34,691 nucleotides of DNA from Deltaproteobacteria bacterium (GTDB lineage Bacteria > Myxococcota_A > Polyangia > Polyangiales > JADJMO01). Below, piece by piece: positions 12,556 through 17,495 of the stretch (positions are counted from its first letter, which is position 1; each line of letters opens with the position of its first letter). A model generated the notes under the pieces. That model saw only the letters and a list, made by a program, of their open reading frames with translations, was not told where the DNA came from and made no database searches. The stretch lies in contig JANYDK010000077.1 in NCBI GenBank assembly GCA_025363655.1, forward strand, positions 1 to 34,691, read 5' to 3'. Position numbers and translations under genes: made by a program.

Positions 12556-13362
12556 CTACTTGATGACGTCTTCGATCGTGTCCATCGGGCCGAGCGAAGG
12601 GACCGCGAAGAGCAGCTTCGAGAGGTGCGGCTTCTCCTTCGCCTCGGCGAAGGCGAGCGCGAGATCGAACGCGGGACCGAAGGTGCCGGTCGGCTGCGCG
12701 TAGATGCGCATCTGGCCTTCCGTGCACGCGCCATCGAGCTTGCGAACGAGCGCGAGCACGTGGTCCGTGGCGACGCCGATCGAGCTCGGCCACACCACCG
12801 TGCCGAACATGTGCGTCTCGGCATCGCCCGGGTAGGCGAGTGTGCGGCGATCCATGCCCACCTGCACCTTGGCGTCGGGCCCGATCCACGCGGTCGCGTA
12901 GCAGAAACCACGTGGCAGAGGGCCAGGCGGCGCGACCTGCACCGAGAGGAAACCACCGCCGTCGCGCGTGCCGTAGAGCTCCCAAACGCCGATGCGATAC
13001 CCGAGACCCGCTTGCATGAGACGGGTGAGCTGACCGTAGGGAACGTCGCGTTCGACGCGGATGCGAATCGGTGCGCCGCCGCGCTCTTTCGCCACGCGCT
13101 CGAGCAGTGGCCGCACTTCGGGAACTTCTTCCGAGAACTCGGGGCTGACGGGGAGCGGCGTGGTGTTGCCGTAGCCGACGATCGCGCGACGTTGCAGGTG
13201 CAGATCGACGATCGGCGATGCGAAAGGAGCATCGGCCATCGAGGCGCCGCTCGCGTCGGCAGGTGGGGTCGTCGACTCCTCGCCCTTGCGACAAAGGCAG
13301 CCGCCGAAGCTCGTGGCTAGGGCGACGCCGACGAGCAGCGCCACGGAGAAGCGGAAACCCAC
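12556..13362 (-). CDS. Putative lipoprotein with ExbD/TolR-like periplasmic region, 268 aa
   Basis: The start is GTG at 13360-13362. The hydrophobic N-terminus (VALLVGVALATSFGGC) ends in an imperfect lipobox with Cys22, then CRKGEE. Residues about 65-135 (P-I-R-I-R-V-E-R-D-V-P-Y-G-Q-L-T-R-L-M-Q then AGLGYRIGVWELYG) follow the pattern of the ExbD/TolR periplasmic domain, where a strand, a helix and a strand carry 'v.i.ad..v.yg.v..vmd.a...G'. Real ExbD is anchored by one uncleaved TM helix, so a lipidated version is unusual. The C-terminal half (about 135-268) is unrecognised and has two cysteines. The gene is divergent from the B12-riboswitch operon, 405 bp away. A link to TonB-type transport is inference only. 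Confidence 0.62.
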   Translation of the reverse strand: MGFRFSVALLVGVALATSFGGCLCRKGEESTTPPADASGASMADAPFASPIVDLHLQRRAIVGYGNTTPLPVSPEFSEEVPEVRPLLERVAKERGGAPIRIRVERDVPYGQLTRLMQAGLGYRIGVWELYGTRDGGGFLSVQVAPPGPLPRGFCYATAWIGPDAKVQVGMDRRTLAYPGDAETHMFGTVVWPSSIGVATDHVLALVRKLDGACTEGQMRIYAQPTGTFGPAFDLALAFAEAKEKPHLSKLLFAVPSLGPMDTIEDVIK

Positions 13363-13466
13363 GGCGACGTTCTAGCAGGAATTTCCCTAGACCCGCGTCG
13401 ATGGTTGCGTACCGAGGATGGGTACGAGTAGAGAGAGCGCGCGTCGGCCGGAATCCTGGTCGACGA

Positions 13467-13651
13467 CGTCGAGGCGGTTCTCGCGCGGGCGCATCAGCGG
13501 TCGCACGGGAGAATAGGGAAGTCGGTGAAAATCCGGCGCGGCCCCCGCCACGGTGACCGGGGACGATCGCGGACGTTGCCACTGGGTGCTCGCACCCGGG
13601 AAGGGTCCGCGGGAGGACGATCCGGGAGCCCGGAGACCTGCCGTCTCGACG
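13467..13651 (+). ncRNA. Cobalamin (B12) riboswitch
   Basis: The conserved core is readable in order on the plus strand: GGGAA (13516-13520), GGTGAAAATCC (13524-13534), GCCCCCGCCACGGTGA (13541-13556), then GCCACTGGG and CCCGGGAAGG on either side of a hairpin (about 13577-13604), and the B12 box AGCCCGGAGACCTGCC (13627-13642). The outer helix P1 closes it well: 13467-13477 pairs with 13641-13651 (10 Watson-Crick pairs plus one G-U). This fixes boundaries and strand. Cobalamin riboswitches normally repress B12 uptake or B12-independent genes when the ligand is abundant. The RNA ends 117 nt before the lipoprotein start at 13768. It accounts for most of the 405-bp gene-free stretch 13363-13767; the remainder shows no other gene. 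Confidence 0.95.
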
Positions 13652-13755
13652 CTTTCGTCCGGAGCACGCGGGGAGCGTAGCGGCGGTCGACGATGGTGTC
13701 GTCCGTTCGCGCGCGTCCCGAGTGGCTCCGATCGGCGGTGCGAGGGTGCACTGCT

Positions 13756-13765
13756 GGAGGTCACC
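13756..13765 (+). promoter_or_regulatory. Shine-Dalgarno with potential to pair with the riboswitch core
   Basis: GGAGG at 13756-13760 lies 7 nt before the ATG at 13768 and decides that start over an ATG 75 nt upstream, which would read through riboswitch-distal leader. The heptamer GGTCACC (13759-13765), overlapping the Shine-Dalgarno, is an exact complement of GGTGACC at 13552-13558 in the conserved riboswitch core. Alternative pairing could couple ligand binding to ribosome access. No clear Rho-independent terminator is seen in the leader. The pairing is inference from sequence only. Confidence 0.45.
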
Positions 13766-13767
13766 CC

Positions 13768-15138
13768 ATGGGCTCGATCATCGATTCACGTATTTCACGC
13801 GTCGCCTTCGTCGCGTGCCTCGGCATGACGCCGCTCTCGTTCTCGATCGCCGGTTGCGCCGACGACGCGGACACGCCGCACCCGACGCCGACGCCGGAGG
13901 ACAGCTCGGTCAGCGAAGTCGGCGCCGATTCGGGCGCCGACTCGGGCGTCGATTCGACCTTGCCCGACACGCGCGTGGACACTGGAACCGACACCGGCAC
14001 GTCCGCCGACACGCGTGACGCTGCGTTCGACGCCGATGTCGCCGATTCGGCCGATGCGCCGACCGACTCTGGCACCGCGGCCGATTGCCTGGCGTCGACC
14101 ACTGGCTCCGCTGTCTTCACCATCACCGACACCAGCCTCTGCGTGGTCGCCGCGTACACGTTGCCGAGCGGCTACGTCTCGTCGCTCACGTGGGGTCGTC
14201 ATGGCGGTCCGCTCGGCTTCGACTCGTTCGGTTCGCCGGCGGTCAAGCTCGTGCGCTGGGCGCCTCCGTCGGGCGCGACCGGTGCGCTGACCTCGACGAC
14301 GACCACCGTCAACGTGCCGTCGCTCCCGTCGTCCACGTTCTACTGGGACTCGCAGGCGCTCGATTTGCCCTTCTACAACTGGACGGCCATCGCGTATGCC
14401 GGCACCAGCGCCGGCTACCCCGGCGAGCTCGTCCTCGCCTCGTCGTCGAGCACCGACCTCGTTCGCTACAACGTCAACGGCTACTTCTCGGAGTCGGCCG
14501 TCGGTCTCGCGGCGTCGGGCGGACGTCTGCTCTATACCGGTCTCTCGCCGCTCGCGACATCGGCCTCGACCACCAACGCCGGCGGTCTCTACGCGGCCGA
14601 TCGCTGCGGCTCGGCGACCAGCTCGCCGCGTCTCCTGCCGGACACCGACACCACCTGCGGCGCGCCCCTCGAGGTCGCGACGTGGGAGAGTGGCAGCTCC
14701 GGCCCGATCGCGGCCGACTACAAGGAGAACGTCTTCGCCATCCTCTCGACGTTCAGCGGCAAGCAGGAGCTGCGCGGCTTCGAAAGCAGCAAGATCGCCC
14801 GCGGCGGCCTCGCCACCAACGGCACCAAGCTGTTCTCGATCGACGGCTACACGGGCGAGATGGTCGCCGATGGCAGCAAGGTCGTCTTCCAGTCGCACGA
14901 CAGCGCCTACAAGCCGATCGACGTGCAAGCGATCGATTACACCGTCGATGCCACCGCCAAGACGGTGAATCCGAGCGGCTCGGTTCGCGACATTCTCCAT
15001 ATGGTGACGCCCGGCACCGGCGTCGCGCTCCTCGTCGACGACAAGCACCGCGTCTGGGTGGGCGTCGCCGATCCGGCCACCGGAGACGCCGGGCCGACGA
15101 GCTCGACCTTCTACGTGTTGCGCAAGAAGACGCCGTGA
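13768..15138 (+). CDS. B12-riboswitch-controlled lipoprotein, propeller-like, 456 aa
   Basis: The signal peptide has a hydrophobic core (about 12-27) and lipobox I-A-G-C with Cys30. Next is an Asp/Ser/Thr-rich flexible linker (about 31-110; repeats such as DSGADSGVDS) typical of surface-exposed myxobacterial lipoproteins. The remaining 340 residues are Ser/Thr/Gly/Val-rich beta-strand segments with recurring loop motifs (ELVLASSSSTDLVRYNV, GGLYAADRC, GLATNGTKLFSIDGYTGEMV, VALLVDDKHRVWVGV) that look like blades of a beta-propeller; at least four cysteines are present. No named family is recognised. It is the first gene under the cobalamin riboswitch and overlaps the next lipoprotein gene by GTGA, so expression should fall at high B12. 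An uptake or surface-binding role is inferred from regulation, not homology. Confidence 0.85.
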   Translation: MGSIIDSRISRVAFVACLGMTPLSFSIAGCADDADTPHPTPTPEDSSVSEVGADSGADSGVDSTLPDTRVDTGTDTGTSADTRDAAFDADVADSADAPTDSGTAADCLASTTGSAVFTITDTSLCVVAAYTLPSGYVSSLTWGRHGGPLGFDSFGSPAVKLVRWAPPSGATGALTSTTTTVNVPSLPSSTFYWDSQALDLPFYNWTAIAYAGTSAGYPGELVLASSSSTDLVRYNVNGYFSESAVGLAASGGRLLYTGLSPLATSASTTNAGGLYAADRCGSATSSPRLLPDTDTTCGAPLEVATWESGSSGPIAADYKENVFAILSTFSGKQELRGFESSKIARGGLATNGTKLFSIDGYTGEMVADGSKVVFQSHDSAYKPIDVQAIDYTVDATAKTVNPSGSVRDILHMVTPGTGVALLVDDKHRVWVGVADPATGDAGPTSSTFYVLRKKTP

Positions 15139-16286
15139 GTCTCCCTCGCCGAAGCGCGGTCTTCGGCGGGACCCTCTTCGTCTCCGGCGTGCTCTCCTGC
15201 TCGGTGAGCACGCCGGTCGGCGATGGCAGCGTATTTCCCGCTGGGATCGGCGTGATGATCGTCGAATCGACGTATGACGGTCAGTCGATCGTCGAGGCCG
15301 TCGACTCGAGCACCCACGTGCGCGCCTTGCAGACCGGTGTCGGCTACGACGCCGATCCGCACCTGCGCAAGCTCCTCGGTGCCGACGGTCGCGCGCGATA
15401 TTTCCTCGTCGGGTCGACCAACGGCACCGTCAGCGAGCTCGACGCGCATGGCGTCGTCATGCAGGTCATCTCGGCGCGCGACGACGCGAAGGGGACCGCG
15501 TCCAATCCGCAAGACGTCGCGCTGATGTCCGACGGCACACTCCTCGTCACGCGCGGGAAGTTGTCGTCGCTCCTCTTCCTCCATCCCGACGGAGCACGCG
15601 AGACGGCCGATCTCGCGTCGTTCGCCGATCCCGACGGCAACCCCGACGCCGATGCGGTGACGATCGTCGGAGAAAGCGCGTTCGTCACGCTGCGGCGACT
15701 CGGCGATGGGTTCGACATTCTCCCCGCCTTTCCCTCGATCCTCGTCGCCGTCGATCTCGCGAAGCCGCACGCCACGCGCAAGATCGCCGAGCTTCCGCCC
15801 GACCCGTTCGGCCCGATCCGGAAGCGTCCCGGCGGTCCGGATGGCGAGCTCTGGATCACGTCCATCGCCGGGCCGATCAGCACGCCTCCCACCCACGGCG
15901 CGGCGCTCGTTCGCGTCGATGCGTCGACCGGTGCGGTGGTGCGGGTCCTCGACGAGGCGAACGTGCACGGCTTCGTCGACGCCTTCGACCTGCGCAGCGA
16001 GCACGAGGGATACGCGATCGTCGCCAGCTTCGAGGGGGCCAATCCGACGCACCTCGTGGCCTTCGATCCGGCGACCGGCGTGCTCCGTTGGTCTCTCGCG
16101 CCACGCGCCGAATACGTGCTGTGGGACGTGCAGGCACGCGGCGATCTTTTGTTCGTCACCGATCGAACGAAGGAGACGCCGAACCTCGCGCTCCTTCGAA
16201 CCAGCGACGGCGCACCCGTCGCCCAGTTCGCGACTCGCACGCTGCCGATCGATTTCGTCCTTCTCGGCGACTCGCAGAGCCGGTGA
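15135..16286 (+). CDS. Second lipoprotein of the B12-riboswitch operon, beta-propeller-like, 383 aa
   Basis: The GTG start (15135-15137) overlaps the TGA of the upstream lipoprotein, indicating translational coupling. The N-terminus RRSAVFGGTLFVSGVLSC is a short signal peptide with a plausible lipobox cysteine at residue 22. The body repeats a pattern of blade-like units: YFLVGSTNGTVSELDAHG, VALMSDGTLLVTRG, LLFLHPDG, ILVAVDLAKP, ALVRVDASTGAVVRVLDE, LVAFDPATGVLRW, LALLRTSDG. This strongly suggests a six- to eight-bladed YncE/NHL-like beta-propeller. No catalytic motif is visible. The obvious functional parallel is BtuG, the propeller lipoprotein that captures cobalamin for BtuB in Bacteroides, but sequence relationship cannot be claimed by eye. 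It ends 15 bp before the convergent adenosine deaminase gene. Confidence 0.85.
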   Translation: MSLPRRSAVFGGTLFVSGVLSCSVSTPVGDGSVFPAGIGVMIVESTYDGQSIVEAVDSSTHVRALQTGVGYDADPHLRKLLGADGRARYFLVGSTNGTVSELDAHGVVMQVISARDDAKGTASNPQDVALMSDGTLLVTRGKLSSLLFLHPDGARETADLASFADPDGNPDADAVTIVGESAFVTLRRLGDGFDILPAFPSILVAVDLAKPHATRKIAELPPDPFGPIRKRPGGPDGELWITSIAGPISTPPTHGAALVRVDASTGAVVRVLDEANVHGFVDAFDLRSEHEGYAIVASFEGANPTHLVAFDPATGVLRWSLAPRAEYVLWDVQARGDLLFVTDRTKETPNLALLRTSDGAPVAQFATRTLPIDFVLLGDSQSR

Positions 16287-16301: not shown

Positions 16302-17495
16302 TCAGATTTTGAGATCGCGCGCCATCGCCTCGCCGTTCGGCGGAGGGGCGGCGCTCTCGCGCTTGCGCTCGTAGCGGCGCCGTGAGGAGTGCATCTCCAT
16401 CTGCACCTCGTCGCTGATGGTGCCGTCCTCGTGGAAGCGATCGAGCTCGAGCGAAACGCGGCGCAGATACTCTTGCTTGACGTGGAAGGGGAGGAACGAG
16501 CTCTTGAAGCCGCTGACCACGATTTGCTTGAGATCGGCGAGGTTGAGGCCCATCTCGGTGTGGCAGAGCCAGAGCTCTTTGGAAACCGTCGTGTCGGTGA
16601 TGAGGCGATTGTCGGTGTTGACCGTCACGCGCAGGCCGAGGTCGGCGTAGAGCTTGAGCGGGTGCGACTTGAGGTCTTTGATGGCCCCCGTCTGCACGTT
16701 GCTCGACGGGCAGCACTCGAGCGCGAGGCGGTGGTCGTTGACGTAGTGGAGCAGGTCGCCGTCCTCGCGGAGGCGGCAGCCGTGACCGATGCGGTGCGCG
16801 CCGCAGATGTGAATCGCCTGGGCGATCGACTCGGGGCCGTACGCTTCACCCGCGTGGATCGTGCAATTGATGTTGTTGTCGCGGACGAGCTGGAAGGCAG
16901 CGCGGTGGTGCTTGGCGGGGTGCCCGTCTTCGCCGCCGGCGAGGTCGAAACCGACGACACCGCGGTTTTTGTAGGCCACCGCGAGCTCGGCCATCTCCAG
17001 CGACGACTCGGCGCTGATGTTGCGGATGCCGCAGACGATGATGTTCGACTCGATGCCGTGGTCTTTCTGCGCGGCCCGGAGCCCCTCGAGGACCGCCTCG
17101 ATCACCGACGTCAGCTTCAGCCCCTTGCGGGTGTGGAGCATCGGCGCGTAGCGAACTTCCATGTACCGCACGCCCTCGGCGGCCGCGTCTTCGGCGAGCT
17201 CGTAGGCGATGCGGGTGAGCGCGGGCTCGGTCTGCATCACTCGGAGGGTGATGTCGAAGGCCTTGAGGTACTCGACCAGCGAGCCGCAGTTCTCGCCGAG
17301 GTGCATCGCCCGGCGGAGGGACTCGGGGTCGTCTCCAGGGAGCTCGACTCGATCGCGCGCGGCGAGGTCGAGGATGCTCTCGAGGCGAAGGGAGCCGTCG
17401 AGGTGGACGTGGAGGTCGGTTTTGGGGAGCTTCTCGATGAACGAGAGCGGGAGACGCGTGCTCGCCGCTCCGGCGGCGTTGTTGTGGGTCGTCAT
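16302..17495 (-). CDS. add: Adenosine deaminase
   Basis: The 397-residue protein has the metal-dependent ADA motifs in order: [11 protein letters not shown] (HxH zinc ligands at about 29 and 31), a substrate-proximal [12 protein letters not shown] (catalytic Glu after zinc His), R-I-G-H-G, and the final zinc Asp in VNTDNRL. The second residue of the usual D-D pair is Asn here, a variant also known from actinobacterial-type adenosine deaminases. The enzyme hydrolyses adenosine to inosine plus ammonia in the cytosol for purine salvage. The C-terminal tail (about 370-397) is basic then Pro-rich and probably disordered. It stands alone between the B12 operon and the DUF296 gene; an inverted repeat lies 37-52 bp upstream of its ATG. 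Confidence 0.93.

Follow-up and report, generated by a model that had tools for sequence, protein, structure and literature searches.

The window analyzed here is a stretch of 34,691 nucleotides from a genome of the order Polyangiales, in which a cobalamin riboswitch was followed by two overlapping lipoprotein genes on the forward strand. The riboswitch aptamer (13458-13659) was a complete copy of RF00174 that aligned to model positions 1-189 with a cmscan score of 115.5 bits (E-value 1.6e-28). As the gathering score of the family is 31.5 bits, the window switch is a member far above threshold, and the covariance search bore out the clear riboswitch that had been claimed from the sequence. Between the aptamer and the first start codon lies a leader of 108 nt (13660-13767), where a GGAGG sequence (13756-13760) precedes the ATG of the first gene. 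The scan of this leader found no terminator-like site, and we therefore infer that the riboswitch acts by translational control. Cobalamin riboswitches repress their genes under an ample supply of the cofactor, and they control functions of uptake, synthesis, and B12-independent isoenzymes. The host genome encodes three copies of RF00174 including the one in the window; the other two were found before nrdA/nrdB-type reductase genes and before a LIC_13355-like lipoprotein gene, and none of the three precedes a receptor or btuCDF gene.

The first gene, P0001 (13768-15138, 456 amino acids), begins with a signal peptide and a lipobox ending in IAG|C30 (13768-13857), followed by a linker of approximately 75 residues rich in Asp, Ser, and Thr (13858-14085), which varies in length and composition among homologs, and a predicted propeller domain of approximately 24 strands, or six blades of four (14086-15135). 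The second gene, P0002 (15135-16286, 383 amino acids), starts at a GTG codon within a GTGA overlap with the stop codon of P0001 (15135-15138), and encodes a BtuG-like propeller lipoprotein with a signal peptide and a probable lipobox, VLS|C22 (15135-15200). Neither protein matched a Pfam or NCBIfam family over the cut-off, which agrees with the original prediction of an overlapping lipoprotein pair unlike known proteins of B12 synthesis or transport. Within the window, no receptor or btuCDF gene adjoins the pair. The flanking genes run in the opposite direction and encode a small lipoprotein-like protein (12556-13362, reverse strand) and an adenosine deaminase (16302-17495). The former had no family match and was conserved next to P0001 throughout the five genomes of the host family.

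The mature domain of P0001, modeled by AlphaFold2 with 19 sequences, was predicted as an all-beta structure of about 24 strands (pLDDT 91.7, pTM 0.91). The model matched propellers, foremost Drp35, sugar dehydrogenases, Pizza6, and NHL domains, with Z scores of 18-20 over 240-280 residues, where the scores for Drp35 and Pizza6 were 19.9 and 19.4, respectively. Hence, P0001 is confidently predicted to be a beta-propeller, and the suggestion that the first protein is propeller-like after a long Asp/Ser linker was supported by this model. The propeller is probably six-bladed, as judged from the strand count and the six-bladed top matches and not from a count on the coordinates. Since high Z scores were obtained to many unrelated propellers, these matches indicate the fold of P0001 and not its function. 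At the sequence level, the P0001 profile (A5) reached a designed Pizza protein at an E-value of 0.0012 and no BtuG at an E-value of 1 or below, no match to PF16819 was found, and profile tests did not connect P0001 with P0002, the other riboswitch-controlled propellers, or the combined superfamily. BtuG was also absent from the 50 matches listed for the P0001 model by VIA-align, an absence that was not counted as evidence against a likeness.

Searches with the P0001 profile identified the family in 44 of the 184 genomes of the order, and in the named collection its relatives occurred in Polyangiaceae and related Myxococcota MAGs. The family is unnamed and, in the sampled genomes, occurred only in Polyangiales. 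A single ortholog was found in each of the five genomes of the host family, always directly behind an RF00174 copy. Across the Rfam searches of loci and genomes, RF00174 was located directly upstream of 31 of the 38 homologs, and one further homolog had a riboswitch truncated at the edge of its contig, where 30.3 bits remained; the distance from switch to gene, measured in 20 genomes, was 84-241 nt. The other members for which a switch was missing were those of three genomes of one genus, second copies in two genomes (G337 and G338), and a divergent paralog in G004. Four label changes for switch presence were counted on the tree of P0001 homologs, among them that of the switch truncated at a contig edge. 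The riboswitch therefore looks ancestral in the family, and the switch-less members would be either second copies or the outcome of a small number of independent losses. A WGxHxGP motif was present in all 38 homologs, with its W, G, H, G, and P residues invariant; in P0001 it reads WGRHGGPL (residues 142-149, positions 14191-14214). A simple pattern detected a lipobox in 31 of the 38, although a few of these are probably spurious.

In six Polyangiaceae genera, P0001 is followed by a block encoding a kinase, a TPR-TonB receptor, and a lipoprotein. This block (loci L143:7846-14187, L144, L145, L147, L148, and L155:2918-9435) was considered as a source of the cognate receptor and rejected, as its receptor is closer to TOL_0244 than to BtuB and as the block occurs by itself, away from P0001, at C76 of the host genome. 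It is regarded here as a neighbor of P0001.

P0002 belongs to a different and broader group. The profile of its nearest relatives (A2) had matches in 56 of the 184 genomes, and many of those in family f5 were riboswitch-linked. Profile comparison gave 99.2% between A2 and f5, and 99.8%, 99.7%, and 99.2% between f5 and L156, L165, and the X type, respectively; by these profiles, the P0002 group is joined to riboswitch-controlled lipoproteins of other families of the order. The superfamily profiles (A7 for the core and A6 for a broader set) matched 21 riboswitch-downstream open reading frames from other genomes, a count that includes members used in profile building, and had no match in the P0001 set. 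Many P0002 homologs in Polyangiaceae, including the highest-scoring ones, had no riboswitch within 1.5 kb. In the host family, close relatives of P0002 adjoin nadD-like genes, and the copies in G003 and G004 have riboswitches of their own. None was detectable for the relatives in G002 and on C68 of the host genome; the host-genome paralog of P0002 beside nadD-like genes (L011:751-1923) differs in this respect from its syntenic, riboswitch-bearing counterparts in G003 and G004. Taken together with the counts for P0001, the survey of related genomes showed repeated riboswitch control of homologs of both genes, as the original prediction had asked of them. Profile matches to Pizza6, NHL, and BtuG support a propeller fold for P0002, and those of the superfamily profile were most specific for BtuG. 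Its single-sequence AlphaFold2 model had a pLDDT of 36, and the earlier count of at least seven blades in this protein was not confirmed.

The relation of P0002 to BtuG was evaluated by searching 177,635 PDB sequences. The core profile A7 reached 11 sequences at an E-value of 0.5 or below, of which the first nine (7.7e-4 to 2.4e-3) were propellers whose entries are named as YncE-family or surface layer proteins. These nine included BtuG2 (8BMX, 8BMY, 3DSM) and BtuG3 (8OKV, 8P97/8P98), as identified through PMC10404256, alongside 8PUJ, 8BAI, 8BAZ, and 8BN0. The E-values of about 1e-3 between the core profile and BtuG should be read with the knowledge that repeat folds inflate such scores. With the broader profile A6, BtuG was reached at 5.8e-6 and ranked below designed Pizza proteins alone. 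The A2 profile, built from the nearest relatives of P0002 alone, did not reach BtuG in the PDB. No PF16819 match was found for P0002 or elsewhere in the host genome, and P0002 is therefore called BtuG-like and not a proven BtuG; one of its relatives (L225) had a weak match of 18.3 bits to this family.

Additional support came from the gene neighborhoods of P0002 relatives. In G322, the riboswitch is followed by a TonB receptor and then a P0002-type lipoprotein (L225). In G337 and G360, the order is riboswitch, LIC_13355-like lipoprotein, receptor, and propeller-type lipoprotein, and in G406 a riboswitch precedes genes for a BtuB-like receptor, a propeller-type lipoprotein, a FecCD/BtuC-like permease, a BtuD-like ATPase, and a Peripla_BP_2 protein. 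The lipoproteins of G406 and G337 have a weaker link to the P0002 group, with profile comparisons of 96.9% to f5 and 36.7% to A2. In G032, a P0002-superfamily lipoprotein gene and a receptor gene diverge, each with its own riboswitch. The best-scoring models for the receptors of these loci were those of BtuB, MxcH, or siderophore receptors, in no case over the cut-off. A TonB receptor gene thus lies beside the relatives of P0002 in four genomes (G322, G337, G360, and G406) but not beside the pair in the window; of the arrangement of a lipoprotein beside a receptor in a riboswitch locus, the window contains the lipobox and the riboswitch, and the receptor neighbor was found in relatives alone (L225, L229, L231).

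Other genes under cobalamin riboswitches were also noted in the order. A family of LIC_13355-like lipoproteins, with the motif VDGxGxDFxVFEN and a partial match, below the cut-off, to the LIC_13355 lipoprotein model NF033170, was riboswitch-controlled at several loci (L010:7507-8352, L037:4964-5611, L038:4837-5499, L039:5130-5846, L183, L173, and L231:5529-6323). Its genes were followed by a TonB receptor gene in G337, G338, and G360 and by a TlpA-like thioredoxin gene in others; it had no match in the PDB and is a candidate B12-binding protein. An unnamed type Y protein was also riboswitch-controlled (L231:3475-4881, L230:6432-8362, L187:2-1335), sometimes with a gene for a lipoprotein of about 200 amino acids ahead of it, and showed no profile relation to P0001 or P0002. 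Class I nrdA (nrdB) genes behind a cobalamin riboswitch constituted a recurrent second regulon member in the order (L009:3981-7336, L157, L158, L162, L177, L207, L209, L210, L214). In G001, the genes for CbpA/CbpB (TIGR04164/TIGR04163) lie behind a cobalamin riboswitch and beside a CobT-like gene (L040:2878-4403); they encode a radical-SAM-modified peptide pair.

BtuG is a protein that binds cobalamin very tightly. To our knowledge, the YncE, NHL, and SMP-30 propellers have no link to B12; they share the general propeller fold with P0001 (for YncE 3vgz, Z 18.1, 3.6 A, 259 residues) but only approximately 10% identity. The pair in the window resembles BtuG2 and BtuG3 of Bacteroides thetaiotaomicron (PF16819; 8BMX, 8BMY, 8OKV) in that propeller lipoproteins are encoded under a cobalamin riboswitch, and relatives of P0002 directly follow a TonB receptor gene much as btuG adjoins btuB. 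Unlike BtuG, neither P0001 nor P0002 matches PF16819 and no btuB lies beside them, and BtuG2 is seven-bladed (PMC10404256), whereas P0001 probably has six blades. BtuG has been reported as exclusive to Bacteroidetes (PMC6143338). Bacteroides has further riboswitch-controlled B12 lipoproteins in addition to BtuG, namely BtuJ/DUF4465 and BtuH (PMC12751083, PMC8941943), and DUF4465 is also present in Myxococcota (PMC13398666). However, DUF4465 is an augmented jelly roll and not a propeller, and neither P0001 nor P0002 matched it. The literature search found no account of propellers under riboswitch control in Myxococcota.

These observations are best explained if P0002 serves in capture as a divergent, BtuG-like lipoprotein and P0001 is another propeller of the regulon with an unrelated sequence. 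Of the two options of the original prediction, a divergent equivalent of BtuG fits P0002 and a convergent one fits P0001. None of the three outcomes named at the outset as contrary (no switch, no propeller, no B12 linkage among homologs) occurred. On balance, the two proteins are probably B12-controlled cobamide-capture lipoproteins that serve a TonB-dependent receptor. At low cellular cobalamin, the switch would permit production of P0001 and P0002, which would be exported, receive lipid anchors at Cys30 and Cys22, respectively, and be tethered by a flexible linker at the outer membrane, presumably exposed on the surface. Their propellers would then bind scarce cobamides and pass them to the receptor, with P0001 performing either the same task as P0002 or a partner step. 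A propeller lipoprotein would suit an uptake role, which for P0002 has three lines of support, namely the riboswitch, the receptor operons of its relatives, and the profile match to BtuG. For P0001, a role in B12 metabolism is suggested by its riboswitch linkage and fold, and cobamides could be bound by both proteins in tandem, or P0001 could act otherwise during B12 starvation.

It is also possible, and we propose tentatively, that P0001 represents a new class of cobamide-binding propeller unrelated to BtuG in sequence, where the loop of the invariant WGxHxGP motif would aid corrinoid binding, possibly through His145; Polyangiales would thus possess two independent propeller capture proteins, here combined in one riboswitch operon. 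A rather unlikely alternative is that P0002 alone captures B12 and P0001 is a surface protein of B12 starvation with another task, such as the binding of a different cobamide precursor, cobalt, a protein partner, or a surface. Such a division would suit the lack of sequence relation between P0001 and either P0002 or BtuG, the usual location of P0001 outside operons with a B12-type receptor, and its coexistence in G337, G360, and G406 with a receptor operon in which a propeller-type lipoprotein is already encoded. However, P0001 has a fold of the same class, and in G202, G168, G125, and G357 the RF00174 copy before its homolog was the only one found in the genome; with P0001 as the sole riboswitch-controlled gene found, a peripheral role becomes less likely.

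The structural neighbors of P0001, which include the Drp35 lactonase, PQQ sugar dehydrogenases, and phytase, together with SMP-30 matches in some P0002 relatives, could also indicate that the pair are lactonase-, phytase-, or quinoprotein-like enzymes used under B12 scarcity, such as B12-independent substitutes or periplasmic remodelers of corrinoids. We regard this as improbable, given the low identity to these neighbors and the equal Z scores to many unrelated propellers, the absence of any enzyme family over the cut-off for either protein, and the combination of lipoprotein, linker, and receptor operons, which suits binding better than catalysis. Slightly less credible still is control of the propellers by accident of descent with no functional link to B12: some homologs of both families do lack a detectable switch, but B12 riboswitches accompany two unrelated propeller families and the receptor operons in several families of the order.

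The present data locate BtuG-like propellers under riboswitch control, in some cases within receptor operons, in several families of a Myxococcota order. P0001 adds to these another propeller family, unrelated in sequence and linked even more tightly to the riboswitch. Should binding be confirmed, lipoprotein-assisted capture of B12 would not be confined to gut Bacteroidetes, and the two marker families, together with a testable motif, would become available for the study of corrinoid competition in soils and waters.
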